A DNA stretch of 8,419 nt from Dehalococcoidia bacterium (GTDB taxonomy: Bacteria > Chloroflexota > Dehalococcoidia > JACPQF01): positions 1-8,419 of the forward strand of contig JAUSEJ010000991.1 of assembly GCA_030650265.1 (NCBI GenBank). The letters are read 5' to 3'. Position 1 is the stretch's first letter, and each line of letters opens with the position of its first letter. Both the position numbers and the translations under genes were made by a program. Of this stretch, positions 351 to 8,419 are shown piece by piece. Below the pieces are notes generated by a model. That model ran no database searches. It was not told where the DNA came from and was given only the letters and a program-made list of their open reading frames with translations.

Positions 351-1724
351 ATGACCCGAGTTGATGAATTGCAGAAGAAGTATCCGGATCTGCCTCGTGA
401 GTTGATCGTCAAATGGGAGACCTTGAGCCAGGGCATCAAGGACACCCCGGCAATCGACAAAGTGAGCGAGTGGACCCGCGGAGGCTCCTACCAGAGTCGT
501 GACCTCAACATAACGATGAAGGAGATCGCGGACAAGAGAGAGGGAACGGCAAAAGCGGGATACGTGTTGCGCCCCAAATCGCTCTATATGAAGAATGGCG
601 TGGGCGTCAACATTCGCAGACATTCCCAAACCCCCTACGAGATTCGGGAGGAGAGTGAGGGCCATTTCGCGCTCTATGAGGGAGAGGACAAGATCGAGGA
701 CATCTTCTTTCCCAGCCCTAAGACACGGGGAGACGAACTCTTTACCAGCAAGGGAACGCCAGTTTCGACCCTGGTCACCGCTCACGCGCGCTGTTTCTCC
801 ATCGCGCCTGTGCGATTCTGTGAATACTTCACCCGGGGCGAACAGTGCAAGTTCTGCAACTACAACTCGACTTATGACGACGCTCGTTCTTTGGGCACGT
901 CTATCCCTCTCACGGTTAACATGGAGGACACAGTCGAAGCGTACAAGATTCTCGCCTCAGAGATGAAGTTCATCGAGGGTCGGTGGCAGAGCGGCGCCCT
1001 CCGGAGCAGCGAGCAGGAAACCGGCACCTACATCAACTTCGTGGAGAAGATAGCCTCCGCCGTTCCCTATACGCCCAATATGACGATGAGCACGCAACCC
1101 GCCGAAAGGAAGCTACTACAGAGGCTGAAGGATGCGGGTCTCACCTGCATTCATTTCAACATGGAAGTATGGGGAGAGGAGCTGTTCGCCGAGGTTTGTC
1201 CGGGGAAATCCAAGTATAGGGGGCTCGATCACTACAAAGAGGGTTATCTGGAAGCGCTAGAGATCTTCGGCGATGGCAACGTTTCATCCAATTTCGTAGC
1301 GGGCGTTAGCATGATGCCGGCGAACGGGTACAAGACCTGGCAGGAGGCCCGGGATTCCGATCTTGAAGGCTACAAATGGTTGATCAGTCACGGCGTGTTC
1401 TGCACCTTCATAGGCTTGCGATTGGGAGTGGGCTCGATCTACGGGGACGACAAAACCAACTGGGCGAAGGTTCCCCCAACGGAGTACTATCTTGAGGCAA
1501 GTATGGGGCATCACAAGCTAATGAAGGAACATGGCCTGTATGAAAAGCTGAACAGGCTGATGTTCTGTCCTCTGGATTGCATCAACGCCATGTATTGTGG
1601 TGACCTGGGGATGATAGAACTGGCCGGCGACATCGGGTCGTGGGCGGCCAAGGTCTTCCCACCCGAGGCCAATTGGCTGGCCAAGTTCATCTCCTCGCAT
1701 CGGGCACCGGCAACAAACCAGTAG
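351..1724 (+). CDS. Radical SAM protein with atypical CX8CX8CX2C cysteines, paralog 1
   Basis: This is a 457-residue cytosolic radical SAM enzyme of no family I can name; the reaction is unknown. The ATG at 351 is preceded by AGGAGA with a 7-base spacer. Cys148, Cys157, Cys166 and Cys169 form CX8CX8CX2C, the last Cys followed by Asn-Tyr-Asn. The usual radical SAM triad is CX3CX2C, so the [4Fe-4S] cluster is probably held by Cys157, 166 and 169 (or Cys148 in place of 157). Barrel-like motifs follow: QRLKDAGL, MEVWGEELF (E272-W274), CPGK (283-286), then GSIYGDD (361-367) and PTEYYLE. This order resembles BioB/HydE-type radical SAM barrels. Three extra cysteines (406, 410, 416) near the C-terminus are only partly shared with paralog 2. 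It is first in a likely operon with the ThDP decarboxylase genes, the next start being 19 bases on. The radical SAM call is firm; the function is open. Confidence 0.9.
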   Translation: MTRVDELQKKYPDLPRELIVKWETLSQGIKDTPAIDKVSEWTRGGSYQSRDLNITMKEIADKREGTAKAGYVLRPKSLYMKNGVGVNIRRHSQTPYEIREESEGHFALYEGEDKIEDIFFPSPKTRGDELFTSKGTPVSTLVTAHARCFSIAPVRFCEYFTRGEQCKFCNYNSTYDDARSLGTSIPLTVNMEDTVEAYKILASEMKFIEGRWQSGALRSSEQETGTYINFVEKIASAVPYTPNMTMSTQPAERKLLQRLKDAGLTCIHFNMEVWGEELFAEVCPGKSKYRGLDHYKEGYLEALEIFGDGNVSSNFVAGVSMMPANGYKTWQEARDSDLEGYKWLISHGVFCTFIGLRLGVGSIYGDDKTNWAKVPPTEYYLEASMGHHKLMKEHGLYEKLNRLMFCPLDCINAMYCGDLGMIELAGDIGSWAAKVFPPEANWLAKFISSHRAPATNQ

Positions 1725-2996: not shown

Positions 2997-4601
2997 ATGG
3001 TTACTTGGTCAAGTCAACTGGCATCAGCGGCACTAGTATTTGGCGCTTTGCTGTTTTCAGCGTGCTCGTCCACTCCGACAACACAGCAAGGAGCGCAGGG
3101 TACACCGGTGCCCCAAGGTCCCTATGGCAGCCTGGTAATCATGGGAAACCTCGGCTCCGGCGGGATCGACCCCGTGCTTACTACCGGCGACATCTACTTG
3201 AGCATAGGCAATGCATATCTCGATACCTTGCTCATATACGACGACAAGGATCAGGTTCAACCGGGGATTGCGGAGCGATGGGAGATATCGGATGATGGCC
3301 TGAGCCAGACCTTCTACATTAGGAAGGGGGTCAAATTTCAGAACGGTGACGACCTCACGGGGGCCGATGTCAAATTCAGTGTTGAGAGAATGATGGCGCC
3401 AGAAGTGACCCATCAGGACGCTGCTGTTTGGCGAGCCGCGATAACCAGTGTGGATCTCAGGGATGACTACACCGTGGTGTTCCGCATGAAGCAGCCTCAG
3501 CTCGAACTGCTCAAGGGGATGGATGGAGGCATGGCAGCCGTAATGCCCAAGAAATACATTGGGCAGAACGGAGTAGATTACTTCCAGAAGCATCCCATGG
3601 GCAGCGGACCATGGAAGGTCGTGAAGTTCGAAATCGGCAACTTCGTCGAACTGGAGGCCGTGGACAGTCACTGGCGAAAGGTCCCCGCGTTCAAGAACCT
3701 CACCATTCGAGGGGTAATGGAGGAGGCAAGCGCCGTCGCCCAACTCAAGACGGGGGAGTTGGACTTGGCTTTGGTCGCACCAGATTCGGTGGCAGGCCTT
3801 AAATCGGCCGGCATACGAATAATGACCTTCGACAGAGGTGCAAACTATTTCATATGGCCGTTTTTCGATATTACCAACCCTGCCAAGTACGCCTTAGGCG
3901 ATGTCAGGGTGCGCAAGGCCGCGCAACTGGCCATTAACCAGAAAGAGATAGGCGCAAACTTGCTCGGTGGAAATGGCGGACCGAAAGCCATGGCTTATGT
4001 GAACTCTAACGCCTATTTCTGGGATCCTAACCAGATAAGGTTGGATCCATACGACCCAGACGGGGCCAAGAAGCTATTAACCGACGCAGGGTACCCCAAT
4101 GGCTTCGACACGAAGCTTTACGACGTAGGGGCAGGGAGCATACTCAGCACCTTAGGCCAAGCTGTGGCGGGCTACTGGCGTAAGGTAGGCATGAATATCG
4201 AGATCGTGCCCATGGATTACGGTACCTTCAGACTCAAGTACAATCCCAAGCAGTTGCCCGAAATCTGGAACACCTTCTGGATCTATCGCGCAAATTATTA
4301 TCGTAACTTCGAAGGAATTCCCCTGGTATACCATTCCTCGAGAAGCTCGGTCAAGAATCTCAACGACCCGACGCTGGACGCACTAATCGACAAGATACCG
4401 CAGACAAAGGATGCCGCCGAGAAGAAGAAGCTTGCGCTCGAGGCTGCTGTGCGGGGGCACGATGCATACACTACACTTGCGGCGGTGGAAGCGTACCCAA
4501 CGCTGGCCTTAAGCGCAAAGGTCGGCCAAGTCAACCGCACCGCGGCTGTGGTAACGACGATTTGGGCAGCCGCATTCGAGGAGATAACCCACGGGAAATA
4601 G
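2997..4601 (+). CDS. ABC transporter solute-binding lipoprotein, SBP_bac_5 (peptide/nickel/opine) family
   Basis: This 534-residue extracytoplasmic binding protein has the usual family size. Residues 1-22 form a hydrophobic leader ending in LLFSAC, with Cys23 as the likely lipidated residue; a Ser/Thr/Gln/Gly/Pro linker follows (24-42). Family-defining stretches are AERWEISDDGLSQTFYIRKG (92-111), VKFQNGDDLTGADVKFSVER just after it, and GSGPWKVVKFE in the middle. Family members bind peptides, opines, nickel chelates, sugars or other small organics, so the ligand is not predictable. The leader is odd: it has no Lys or Arg before the hydrophobic core, and Phe rather than Leu at -3 of the lipobox; no in-frame upstream start exists before a stop at 2979. 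GGAGG at 2983-2987 is 9 bases from the ATG. No permease or ATPase gene is adjacent, so it must use a transporter encoded elsewhere or act as an orphan receptor. Confidence 0.92.
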   Translation: MVTWSSQLASAALVFGALLFSACSSTPTTQQGAQGTPVPQGPYGSLVIMGNLGSGGIDPVLTTGDIYLSIGNAYLDTLLIYDDKDQVQPGIAERWEISDDGLSQTFYIRKGVKFQNGDDLTGADVKFSVERMMAPEVTHQDAAVWRAAITSVDLRDDYTVVFRMKQPQLELLKGMDGGMAAVMPKKYIGQNGVDYFQKHPMGSGPWKVVKFEIGNFVELEAVDSHWRKVPAFKNLTIRGVMEEASAVAQLKTGELDLALVAPDSVAGLKSAGIRIMTFDRGANYFIWPFFDITNPAKYALGDVRVRKAAQLAINQKEIGANLLGGNGGPKAMAYVNSNAYFWDPNQIRLDPYDPDGAKKLLTDAGYPNGFDTKLYDVGAGSILSTLGQAVAGYWRKVGMNIEIVPMDYGTFRLKYNPKQLPEIWNTFWIYRANYYRNFEGIPLVYHSSRSSVKNLNDPTLDALIDKIPQTKDAAEKKKLALEAAVRGHDAYTTLAAVEAYPTLALSAKVGQVNRTAAVVTTIWAAAFEEITHGK

Positions 4602-4702: not shown

Positions 4703-6091
4703 ATGACTCGAGTCGATGATCTACAGAGGAAATACCCGAGTATTCCCCGCGAGGTTCTCGTCAAATGGGAACTTCTCAGAAATGGACTTAGAGACTCGAG
4801 CGTAATCGACAAGGTAAGCGACTGGATAAGACCCACTGGCCAGTATCAAAACCGTGACATCGACGTAACGATGTTTGACATAGGGAAAAAACGGCCGGAA
4901 ACCTTGAGGCAGGGCTATATCATGCGTCCAAGGCCGGCCTTCATGAAGAACGGTATTTCCGCTCAAACAAGGAGACATTCCGAGAGCCCATATGAGGCTA
5001 GGGAACTGGGTAACGGAAAGTTTGGCCTTTATGAGGGAGAAGTGAAGGTCGAGGACGTATACTTCCCCGCTCATACTCTGCCATGGGATGTGGAGCCAGT
5101 GACCAGAAAGGGCTGGCCGGTTACGAGCCTGGTCAAGTTCGAGAACGTTTGTTTCAGCATCGGCGCCACACGATACTGCGAATATTTCTCTACGGGGGAA
5201 CAGTGTAAGTTCTGTAACTTCAACGCCACTCAGGACGACGCCCGATCCACTGGCACCGAAGTGCCAATCACCATTAACCTTCAGGAAACGGTTGAGGCCT
5301 ACAAGATCATCAGTTCAAAGGTTAGGCTGGTCGAAGGCTATTTTCAGATGGGCGGCTTCCGGGACCGTGAGCAAGAAATGAAAGTTCAGTTGGCCTTTCT
5401 TGAGAAGATTGCCGGTGCCGCTTCTTACAAGCCTTTTCTGGGCCTAAACACTCAACCGATGAGCCGGAAGGACATGCAGAGGTTGAAGGATGCGGGAGTT
5501 GACAATACTACGCTGAATCTTGAGGTATGGGACGCCGAAATGTACAAGGAGATTCTCCCGGGGAAGGCCAAATGCGTTGGCCGCGATCGTGTCTTGGAAG
5601 CTTTACTCGACGCTGTAGATGTCTTGGGGCCTGGCAACGTGGGAACCAGCCTGGTGGGGAGCCTCACCCTGATGCCGCCGCATGGGCACAAGAGCTGGCA
5701 AGAGGCACGGGATTCGCACATCGAAGGGAGTCGCTGGCTGATAAGAAATGGGGTATTCCCTCATTTCCATGCCTTGCGATTGGGAGCAGGCTCAATCTAT
5801 GGCGACGACAGGTCGAATGTGAAAAAGCTGGCGCCGACCGAGTATTACCTGGATGTGGCTACTGCTCATCATGAGGCAATGATGGAGAACGCCCTCTATG
5901 AGAAATACAATAGGAAGTTGCTGCGATGTCCTCTGGATGGCATCGCAAGTATCTACGGCGGCGATCTTGGGATACTGGCCATTTACGGGGATGTTGGCAA
6001 CTATGCCGCTCAGCTCGGCGTTCCAAATGAGGCCAACTGGGTGGCTAAGTTCATTTCGTCAATGAAGTCTTCTTCACCGGCAACAAACTAA
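4703..6091 (+). CDS. Radical SAM protein with atypical CX8CX8CX2C cysteines, paralog 2
   Basis: This 462-residue paralog of the protein at 351-1724 is collinear with it over its whole length, from MTRVD..LQ.KYP at the start to EANW.AKFISS and PATN at the end. Cys150, Cys159, Cys168 and Cys171 keep the CX8CX8CX2C spacing. EVWDAEMY (274-281), LPGK (285-288), GSIYGDD (363-369) and PTEYYLD are conserved too. It differs where paralog 1 has extra cysteines: only Cys409 of the C-terminal set remains (CPLDGIASIYGG), and the CPGK cysteine is Leu285. That points to Cys150/159/168/171 and perhaps Cys409 as the functional ones. GGAG at 4691-4694 sits 8 bases before the ATG. It is 97 bases upstream of the AOR-family gene and probably co-transcribed with it; I saw no promoter between them. 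The product may act on the same chemistry as paralog 1 with a different substrate. The reaction is unknown. Confidence 0.9.
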   Translation: MTRVDDLQRKYPSIPREVLVKWELLRNGLRDSSVIDKVSDWIRPTGQYQNRDIDVTMFDIGKKRPETLRQGYIMRPRPAFMKNGISAQTRRHSESPYEARELGNGKFGLYEGEVKVEDVYFPAHTLPWDVEPVTRKGWPVTSLVKFENVCFSIGATRYCEYFSTGEQCKFCNFNATQDDARSTGTEVPITINLQETVEAYKIISSKVRLVEGYFQMGGFRDREQEMKVQLAFLEKIAGAASYKPFLGLNTQPMSRKDMQRLKDAGVDNTTLNLEVWDAEMYKEILPGKAKCVGRDRVLEALLDAVDVLGPGNVGTSLVGSLTLMPPHGHKSWQEARDSHIEGSRWLIRNGVFPHFHALRLGAGSIYGDDRSNVKKLAPTEYYLDVATAHHEAMMENALYEKYNRKLLRCPLDGIASIYGGDLGILAIYGDVGNYAAQLGVPNEANWVAKFISSMKSSSPATN

Positions 6092-6188: not shown

Positions 6189-8060
6189 GTGAAACTAACC
6201 AACAATCTCGGATATGCAGGACAGGTACTGCGAGTCGACCTCAGTACTGGCAAGATCGGTGCGGAGGCGTTGCCGGCGCCGGAAGAGTTGAGGCAGCTAC
6301 TCGGCGGCACGGGACTGGGAGTGAGAATACTCTACGACGAGGTGCCTGCGGGCGTCGGACCCTATGATCCGGAGAACCGGCTCACCTTTGCCACGGGACC
6401 CTTTGGAGGCACAAACCTGGGGGGAACCGGTACCTTCTCCGTGGTTTCCAAAGGGCCGATGACCAATGGCGCTCTTGCCTCTCAAGCCAATGGCTTCCTC
6501 GGCGCCTGCATGAAATTCGCCGGCTTTGACGCCGTGATTGTTCAGGGTCAATCCCCCAAGCCAGTCTACCTCTACATCCATGACGGGCAGGCCGAGCTGA
6601 GAGATGCCGGCTACCTCAAAGGGAAGGACACTTGGGAGACGATAGACCTGGTCGCCGAAGAGCTAGGGCAGCCGGAGAGCAGGTTGAGCGTCTTCAGCGC
6701 TGGTCCTGCCGGCGAGAATAAGGTGCGCTTTGCGGCTATAGTTGGCGACCGCGGGCACGTCGTCGCCCACGGCGGGCCCGGTGCGGTGATGGCATCAAAG
6801 AACCTGAAGGCCATAGTGGCGTCCCGGGGTCGCGGTCAGATAGCGGTTAAGGAGAAGGAGAGGCTCAAGTCAGTGTTCCAGGCTATCCTCGTAGACGTCC
6901 AGAAATCACCGCTGGATATCTACCATTGGGGCACCGGCCTCGTCTACCCCATAGCGCAAAAGTCAGGATGGCTGCCTGTTAAGAACTATCTGGAAGCGGA
7001 TTTCGCCGAGAAAGACCTCTTTACCAGTCCCAAGTATCGCCCGCTCTTCAAAAGGAAGCGAACGCCCTGCTGGGCCTGCCGCTTCGACCACTGCGCTATC
7101 GTGACCATCAAAGAGGGTCCGTATGCCGGCTATGTAGGTGAGGAGCCGGAATTCGAGGGCTTTGTCTCATGGGGTTGCCTTACCGGCCAAACCGACCCCG
7201 TCGCCGCCGTGGTTCTCTCTAATGATGTGGACCGCCTCGGCATGGACACCAATGAAGCCGGCTGGATCATGGCTTGGGTCATCGAGTGCTACGAAAAGGG
7301 CCTGCTAACGAAGAAGGATACCGATGGGCTGGAAATGACATGGGGAAACGTCGCGTTGATGAGAGCTATGCTGCGCAAAATAGCCTTTCGGGAAGGCTTC
7401 GGCAACGTCCTGGCGGACGGGGTGATGCGGGCTGCTCAGCAGGTCGGGGGTGAAGCGGCGGATCTGGCCATCTATACGATGAAAGGGAATACGCCACGAG
7501 GCCACGACCCGCGCGTCTTCTGGCAGATTCTTCTGGATGTCAGCACTTCCAACGTGGGGCTGGATGCGGCCGGAGCAAACGCCGCGACACCAGCATCTGT
7601 GGGACTGCCTCCCGATACCGACGTCTATACGCCCGATGGGGAAGCAGCCTTGCTTGCCGCTTCTTACGGTGTGCCATTCTTCCGGGATAGCCTTGGAATA
7701 TGCATGCTATCGATCGGCGGCGCCCCTCAGAGCCGGATTTTAGAAGCGATAAGCGCCGTCACTGGCTGGGATTTCACGGCGGATGAGGCAAAGAGGTTCG
7801 GGTTCAGGGCGGCCCACATGTTGAGTGCCTTCGATATCAAGCACGGACTTACCCCTGAGGTCGAGGCTCCCTCAGCCAGGTTTGGCTCGTCTTCCTTGAT
7901 CGGTCCCGCTGCAGCTCAAGCGAGGAGTATTCTTCCAGAATGGGACAAGGCGCGGCGAAGCTCCTACGAGAAAATGGGTTGGGATGGCAGGACCGGGCGT
8001 CCCCTGCCGGAGACGCTTCGACAGCACGGACTCGATGCTATGGTAAAGGACTTTTGGTAA
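6189..8060 (+). CDS. Aldehyde:ferredoxin oxidoreductase family protein (tungsto/molybdo-bispterin enzyme)
   Basis: A complete 623-residue AOR-family enzyme. Such enzymes oxidise aldehydes to acids (or, in the BamBC branch, reduce benzoyl-CoA) at a W or Mo bis-pterin site with one [4Fe-4S] cluster, exchanging electrons with ferredoxin. Seen here: the N-terminal pterin-binding domain (LGGTGLGVRILYDE, ATGPFGGT, SVVSKGPMTNG), EPEFEG (319-324), DRLGMDTNEAG (Gly351-Thr354), GHDPR (438-442) and DSLGIC with Cys505, the expected fourth cluster ligand. The other three, Cys294, Cys297 and Cys302, read CWACRFDHC, i.e. CX2CX4C, one residue longer than the CX2CX3C of Pyrococcus furiosus AOR. The start is GTG at 6189, with GGGGG at 6179-6183 as a close Shine-Dalgarno and AAGGA at 6170-6174 further off. 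In context it could oxidise the aldehyde made by the ThDP enzyme upstream. The substrate and the metal are not readable from sequence. Confidence 0.93.
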   Translation: MKLTNNLGYAGQVLRVDLSTGKIGAEALPAPEELRQLLGGTGLGVRILYDEVPAGVGPYDPENRLTFATGPFGGTNLGGTGTFSVVSKGPMTNGALASQANGFLGACMKFAGFDAVIVQGQSPKPVYLYIHDGQAELRDAGYLKGKDTWETIDLVAEELGQPESRLSVFSAGPAGENKVRFAAIVGDRGHVVAHGGPGAVMASKNLKAIVASRGRGQIAVKEKERLKSVFQAILVDVQKSPLDIYHWGTGLVYPIAQKSGWLPVKNYLEADFAEKDLFTSPKYRPLFKRKRTPCWACRFDHCAIVTIKEGPYAGYVGEEPEFEGFVSWGCLTGQTDPVAAVVLSNDVDRLGMDTNEAGWIMAWVIECYEKGLLTKKDTDGLEMTWGNVALMRAMLRKIAFREGFGNVLADGVMRAAQQVGGEAADLAIYTMKGNTPRGHDPRVFWQILLDVSTSNVGLDAAGANAATPASVGLPPDTDVYTPDGEAALLAASYGVPFFRDSLGICMLSIGGAPQSRILEAISAVTGWDFTADEAKRFGFRAAHMLSAFDIKHGLTPEVEAPSARFGSSSLIGPAAAQARSILPEWDKARRSSYEKMGWDGRTGRPLPETLRQHGLDAMVKDFW

Positions 8061-8315: not shown

Positions 8316-8419
8316 ATGACCAAAGTTGATGAATTGCAAAAGAGTTACCCGGATCTTCCCCGGGAGTTCATTGTCAAATGGGAGATCCTAAGCCACGGTA
8401 TCAAAGATACCCCGGCAAT
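8316..8419 (+). CDS. Radical SAM protein, paralog 3 (5' end only, cut by window edge)
   Basis: Only 34 complete codons are visible, beginning MTKVDELQKSYPDLPREF. The ATG at 8316 has an ideal AGGAGG (8303-8308) with a 7-base spacer. By my count, 29 of the 34 residues and 86 of 104 bases match the start of the gene at 351, and most base changes are silent. Paralog 2 matches paralog 1 at only 20 of these 34 positions. It is therefore a second close copy of gene 1, evidently under selection for protein sequence. The cysteine motif lies outside the window, so its radical SAM identity rests on this homology. If the arrangement repeats, decarboxylase or binding-protein genes may follow. Confidence 0.85.
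   Translation, partial: MTKVDELQKSYPDLPREFIVKWEILSHGIKDTPA

Follow-up and report, generated by a model that had tools for sequence, protein, structure and literature searches.

Variant radical SAM enzymes with a CX8CX2C motif, multiplied and linked to solute-binding-protein genes in a few Chloroflexi

Two genes on a contig of a Dehalococcoidia bacterium (JAUSEJ010000991.1; 'the window' below means this whole stretch of 8,419 nucleotides) encode paralogous proteins with a common set of four cysteines, CX8CX8CX2C, formed by Cys148/157/166/169 in paralog 1 (792–857) and Cys150/159/168/171 in paralog 2 (5150–5215). The locus raises the question of which of these residues hold the iron–sulfur cluster of a radical S-adenosylmethionine (SAM) enzyme, and what role such enzymes might play in their host. 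The original prediction held that the set is identical in two proteins that differ at about half of their positions, and this is borne out: all eight cysteines are in place and the paralogs are 51% identical. We have followed family, fold, cysteine conservation, expansion and gene linkage by computation, and arrive at a reading to which we give a probability of about one half, namely that variant radical SAM enzymes with a cluster on C157/C166/C169 have been duplicated as a solute-degrading toolkit and carry a second site at C148/C406. The relevant features of the two genes are:

351–1724, + strand: radical SAM paralog 1, 457 amino acids, variant_rSAM (NF045502, 177.2 bits; AlphaFold2 model)
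819–857, + strand: predicted [4Fe-4S]–SAM loop CX8CX2C of paralog 1 (conservation; loop after strand 148–151), with the codons of C157 (819–821), C166 (846–848) and C169 (855–857)
792–794, + strand: C148 of paralog 1, clade-specific cysteine at the start of strand 1 (alignments, model)
1566–1580, + strand: C406 and C410 of paralog 1, a CX3C near the C terminus (alignments)
4703–6091, + strand: radical SAM paralog 2, 462 amino acids, variant_rSAM (NF045502, 143.6 bits; predicted model)
5177–5215, + strand: predicted [4Fe-4S]–SAM loop of paralog 2 (motif, model), with the codons of C159 (5177–5179), C168 (5204–5206) and C171 (5213–5215)
5150–5152, + strand: C150 of paralog 2, the equivalent of C148 (alignment)

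The assignment of both proteins to the radical SAM enzymes of NCBIfam family NF045502 ('variant_rSAM') is well supported. Profile searches gave a divided answer: both proteins exceed the NF045502 cut-off of 125 bits, and all 89 members of our family alignment match this model with E-values of 1e-10 or better, whereas Pfam PF04055 stays below its gathering score of 29.5 bits (19.8 and 26.5 bits; E 9e-4 and 8.5e-6). A phmmer search of paralog 1 against solved structures returned one match only, which is unrelated (E 0.0099). The radical SAM fold that had been anticipated is what both models predict, a partial (beta/alpha)6 radical SAM barrel with a predicted local distance difference test score (pLDDT) of 95.1 for paralog 1 and 93.6 for paralog 2 and a predicted template modelling score (pTM) of 0.93 for each. 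In the AlphaFold2 model of paralog 1, strand 148–151 is followed by the cysteine loop, helices and strands 209–213, 243–248, 266–272, 311–317 and 350–355; paralog 2 has the same strand order, and its first strand spans 150–154. Structural neighbours of the models include the maturases HydE, HydG and NifB and the cofactor synthases LipA and BioB. Because both proteins pass the NF045502 cut-off, the subfamily, at first taken to be uncharacterised, is one that NCBI has already modelled; the description still fits insofar as we found no biochemistry for it in the literature. NF045502 is a domain family of which the MSMEG_0568/NitD family is one branch; its model title gives no function, and the clade to which the window copies belong is set apart by C148, by a CX3C near the C terminus and by its very high copy number.

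The last three cysteines were said to form a non-canonical CX8CX2C, and the spacing is real; it arises by chance in 70 of 20,000 shuffles of paralog 1. Among rows of the 89-row family alignment that have a residue at the position, cysteine is found at C157 in 88/88, at C166 in 88/89, at C169 in 89/89 and at C148 in 84/87, which supplies the per-cysteine conservation that the original prediction had proposed as a check, and the exact CX8CX8CX2C string occurs in 82 of the 89 rows (partial proteins are among the seven without it). A wide alignment takes in Nit1C/MSMEG_0568-type, Streptomyces and other Chloroflexi members; of its 92 rows, three being duplicates, 92 have cysteine at C157, 91 at C166 and 92 at C169. 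In the paralog 1 model these three residues sit in the loop after strand 1, and in weak profile matches to biotin synthase structures (E 0.034 to 0.32) C166 and C169 fall on the last two cluster cysteines; an hhalign comparison with biotin synthase gave a probability of only 20.9%. Since C157, C166 and C169 are near-invariant in the wide alignment and placed in this loop, they are, judged from alignments and a predicted structure, most likely the cluster ligands. It had seemed unclear which three of the four cysteines bind; conservation and loop position now largely answer this in favour of C157/C166/C169 over C148. One copy, P0068 (Q7O66_11725), has serine for C166, has also lost C148 and C406, and is possibly inactive.

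The first two cluster cysteines are separated by eight residues in the window's clade, in Rhodococcus NitD-type proteins and in a sister branch from a further genome, G432, by nine in the proteins L025 and L029 and by 14 in L032; as aligned, an insertion between the first two putative ligands is a trait of the whole modelled family. Biotin synthase, lipoyl synthase and HydE-HydG-ThiH carry CX3CX2C, and Elp3 has CX9CX2C. QueE, HmdB and Elp3 resemble the window family in having extra residues between the first two cluster cysteines, with insertions of different length. One published account gives CX14CX2C for QueE and CX5CX2C for HmdB (PMC4389238), so that the short list of established odd spacings offered in the original prediction lacked at least QueE.

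C148 behaves differently from the other three. It is the first residue of strand 1 in the paralog 1 model, away from the cysteine loop, and it is present in 72 of the 92 wide-alignment rows: 70 belong to the window's clade (72 rows; support of 100 in a Shimodaira–Hasegawa-like approximate likelihood ratio test, SH-aLRT, on a quick tree) and two are relatives outside it. Apart from those two, C148 is absent outside the clade, and it is missing in the 18 genes of the G432 sister branch whose motif was read; the family-wide four-cysteine cluster signature that had been suggested is rejected on these grounds, and C148 is not likely to be a ligand of the SAM cluster. Inside the clade its fate is shared by C406: both residues are present in 70 rows and neither in two (P0068 and P0083), and in the family alignment, where C406 is cysteine in 76 of the 79 rows with a residue, both are present in 74 rows and neither in three, with no mixed rows and 12 gapped. 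The alignments make it possible that C148 and C406, with C410 where present, constitute a second, clade-specific site, either metal-binding or structural. The question of the fourth cysteine is cleared up to the extent that it appears to belong to something other than the SAM cluster. In the MSMEG_0568 proteins L024 and L025 a C-terminal CX2CX2C (AGCAACGACS) might provide the NitD family with the site of a further cluster.

Two known groups were considered as homes for the window proteins. The MSMEG_0568/NitD family (TIGR04043) resembles them in its CX8CX2C in Rhodococcus (CX9CX2C in Agrobacterium), in a PGK motif and in the E of EVW, but differs in sequence (21–23% identity), in the absence of C148 and in a C-terminal CX2CX2C where the window's clade has CX3C. 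Membership is rejected both on score (54.9 and 44.5 bits vs a cut-off of 303.7) and on context, as no nitrilase is found among the window genes, unlike in the Nit1C cluster. Biotin synthase, lipoyl synthase and HydE-HydG-ThiH share the barrel, with identities of about 10–17% in fold matches, and the last two cluster cysteines of biotin synthase align with those of the window family; membership in biotin synthase is rejected with 15.6 and 11.3 bits against the TIGR00433 cut-off of 225.

A first homologue search returned 88 proteins, 58 with the locus tag prefix Q7O66, which belongs to one Dehalococcoidia metagenome-assembled genome, and ten with the prefix HYX94; a profile search found two further Q7O66 tags, which brings the total to 60 tagged copies. 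Forty-three of these are at least 400 amino acids long and have a median pairwise identity of 48% and a maximum of 78%; because identity goes no higher, the copies are old duplicates rather than strain variants. The remaining 17 tags include some pieces at contig ends, which might be two halves of one gene. The nearest relatives of the window copies, at 74% and 72% identity, are also found in Q7O66, which makes it likely that the window itself stems from the Q7O66 species. HYX94 rows are interleaved with Q7O66 rows in the tree, and duplication therefore set in before the split of these lineages. The genome that holds the HYX94 contigs, G001, has 13 family matches (11 over the cut-off), and G432 has 19, all over the cut-off; the 18 G432 copies whose motif was read have CX8CX2C and no cysteine nine residues upstream, and since C148 is absent there the G432 set represents a separate expansion of a sister branch. 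Among 400 genomes from the phylum of G001, 34 match and 14 pass the cut-off (at most four copies scored per genome), and among 294 genomes from its class the figures are 46 and 14 (at most six scored per genome); only G001 and G432 have more than three over-cut-off copies in these samples. Neither the multiplication of the family nor its linkage to solute-binding-protein (SBP) genes was found in the published literature searched, mostly without subscription papers. What may be new here is the copy-number expansion together with the SBP linkage; the modelled family and its standard fold were already known.

The SBP linkage is strongest in G432, where an SBP gene is found no more than 1 kilobase (kb) from 15 of 18 family matches, a count that leaves out the match on contig C22 (the exceptions are C301, C256:23197 and C210:20539). 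Counted by open reading frames (ORFs), an SBP gene is the immediate neighbour of 14 of 17 radical SAM ORFs, and this count omits one radical SAM gene, included among the 18 matches, that lies under a longer antisense ORF. Nine of ten proteins picked beside radical SAM genes match SBP families in Pfam, and the tenth (L063:5802–6920) resembles SBPs only by BLAST to the other nine. With a chance adjacency of roughly 10% in a genome estimated at about 6,000 genes, the binomial tail is 6e-13, a value that overstates the case because the copies cluster on few contigs. In Q7O66, 14 of 53 distinct sizes of copy-bearing contigs equal those of contigs with relatives of the window SBP (43 Dehalococcoidia-labelled relatives among the 120 matches listed); in 200 shifts the number of such coincidences averaged 0.23 and never exceeded 3. 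As a side observation, the window SBP (2997–4601) and the SBPs on L061–L069 of G432 have no recognised permease gene alongside, and in a crude hydrophobicity scan of L061–L069 no more than two ORFs, both small, stood out. The number of SBP_bac_8 matches in G432 is at least 150.

In the window itself all genes lie on the + strand, in the order radical SAM 1, two halves of a thiamine diphosphate (ThDP)-dependent decarboxylase, SBP, radical SAM 2, aldehyde oxidoreductase and radical SAM 3. Besides the two complete paralogs these are:

1744–2271, + strand: ThDP-dependent decarboxylase, N-terminal half, sulfopyruvate decarboxylase alpha / phosphonopyruvate decarboxylase-like (PF02776, 34.5 bits, over cut-off)
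2281–2886, + strand: ThDP-dependent decarboxylase, C-terminal half (PF02775, 69.3 bits, over cut-off); listed with a TTG start, with ATG at 2290 and 2293 as alternative possible starts
2997–4601, + strand: extracellular solute-binding protein, SBP_bac_5 family (PF00496, 232 bits; hydrophobic N terminus ending in Cys)
6189–8060, + strand: enzyme of the aldehyde:ferredoxin oxidoreductase family (tungsten/molybdenum pterin; PF01314, 258.2 bits, and PF02730, 222.1 bits, both over gathering score)
8316–8419, + strand: third radical SAM paralog, start only, truncated where the window ends (78% to P0076 across 32 residues)

The ThDP halves score below the cut-offs of the sulfopyruvate decarboxylase ComDE models (70.7 vs 147.95 bits for TIGR03845 and 121.6 vs 221.5 bits for TIGR03846). 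A relative of the C-terminal half adjoins an aldehyde oxidoreductase in G432 (C253:5421–7924), and since the pair recurs there without a radical SAM gene, this supports the view that the two form a unit. Elsewhere, among the part of all neighbours that was scanned, the genes beside family members are of varied catabolic redox types. They include xanthine-dehydrogenase-like proteins, acyl-CoA dehydrogenase, flavin oxidoreductase and major facilitator superfamily (MFS) transporters, as well as hydantoinase A and B with two 2-hydroxyglutaryl-CoA-dehydratase D proteins; further neighbours are UbiD (twice), MmgE/PrpD, MtmB-like proteins (twice), MutE, fumarate-reductase-like flavoproteins and a molybdopterin oxidoreductase. 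Directly upstream of three G001 copies stand regulators of the MalT-like AAA ATPase / LuxR type, each about 1,000 amino acids long (L004:2532–5672, L005:2208–5282 and L008:2575–5736).

From these neighbourhoods, from which we read a catabolic role, a sequence of events can be proposed. The predicted [4Fe-4S] cluster on C157, C166 and C169, with a putative ligand spacing five residues longer between the first two cysteines than in CX3CX2C, would bind SAM at the barrel mouth and cleave it reductively, and the 5'-deoxyadenosyl radical would abstract hydrogen from a solute, a small organic molecule. The second site, specific to the clade, may consist of C148 and C406, joined by C410 in many copies, and lie on or close to the floor of the barrel; each duplicate is probably tuned to a different substrate. 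The neighbouring SBP would capture the solute, the radical enzyme would bring about the initial, difficult change in bonding, and enzymes encoded nearby would complete the conversion. In the window, the sequel could be that the ThDP enzyme converts a 2-oxoacid to an aldehyde, which the aldehyde oxidoreductase would oxidise to the acid, returning reduced ferredoxin able to feed SAM cleavage.

Several observations count against this proposal. SBP genes abound in G432 (150 matches scored among 320 candidates), and the 15 of 18 are not independent because of the same clustering on few contigs; in G001 only three of the 13 family matches have an SBP_bac_5 match no more than 5 kb away (compared by eye). 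For the putative second site, C410 is not conserved (cysteine in 65/77, glycine in paralog 2), and the C406 column has cysteine in 11 rows without C148 that show other C-terminal cysteine patterns, such as the AGCAACGACS of NitD type; as far as the alignments go, the coupling of C148 and C406 is limited to the clade and based on two losses. Finally, the neighbouring enzymes vary between loci, so that a pathway common to them is not demonstrated.

The nearest published parallel comes from the SAR202 Chloroflexi, for which one study describes an ancient expansion that brought flavin monooxygenases, the enolase superfamily and dioxygenases to tens of copies and is suggested to have broadened the spectrum of organic compounds that are oxidised (PMC6946804); there the expanded families are oxygenases and enolases, here an oxygen-sensitive radical SAM family with SBPs, and the word 'radical' does not occur in the main text of that paper. 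A bolder version of our proposal, which we offer tentatively and rate as somewhat improbable in its entirety, is that the family constitutes an oxygen-independent counterpart of this oxygenase toolkit: from a single radical SAM family each genome would have a dozen to sixty enzymes, many of them served by an SBP of their own and each using the 5'-deoxyadenosyl radical to open a different recalcitrant organic solute, and within the family one clade would have gained a second metal site (C148/C406).

The alternative that survives best, although we consider it unlikely, is that the radical SAM proteins do not act on solutes but mature a cofactor or activate a neighbour such as the tungsten aldehyde oxidoreductase. 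The maturases and cofactor synthases among the structural neighbours (HydE, HydG, NifB, LipA and BioB) fit this idea, as does the aldehyde oxidoreductase gene that follows paralog 2, and such genes lie within 5 kb of three of 13 matches in G001 and two of 19 in G432 (by eye). However, the 17 aldehyde oxidoreductase matches of G001 and the 34 of G432 are mostly away from radical SAM genes, the majority of radical SAM copies lack one nearby, partner enzymes change from locus to locus, and a maturase would hardly be needed in 60 copies with a median identity of 48%.

That the genes instead make a secondary metabolite or a modified peptide, with the SBPs recapturing or sensing the product, strikes us as quite improbable. 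Radical SAM enzymes are common in gene clusters of this kind, and the large LuxR/MalT-like regulators upstream of three G001 copies would suit such a role. NitD relatives are found in the seven-gene Nit1C cluster with a nitrilase and an acetyltransferase (PMC1199592). Against this, no precursor-peptide or assembly-line gene was seen among the neighbours scanned, and the partners are of types usual in degradation. It is very unlikely that some or many copies are degenerate or that a mixed metagenome bin has inflated their number: most Q7O66 copies do lie on short contigs, many are labelled partial and P0068 has its serine, but the 43 long copies, at most 78% identical to each other, are too diverged to be strain variants of a single gene, C157/C166/C169 are retained with hardly an exception, the independent genomes G001 and G432 have their 13 and 19 matches with no internal stop codon, and true tandems exist, for example Q7O66_06040/06045 on one 7,837-base contig.

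Radical SAM chemistry is known mainly from biosynthesis and enzyme maturation. If the toolkit proposal is true, this chemistry would rank among the main ways in which uncultured anaerobes break down organic matter, one family would supply dozens of natural variants with different substrates, and the binding protein of each variant could be used to find its substrate.

Among the minor features of the window, promoter and terminator scans gave no more signal than in shuffled sequence, a Laminin EGF Pfam match (E 0.079) was put down to chance, and an 85-residue open frame at the left edge (3–260) has no Pfam match. The aldehyde oxidoreductase (6189–8060) carries the cysteine pattern CX2CX4C (CWACRFDHC); the cluster site of its family is CX2CX3C.
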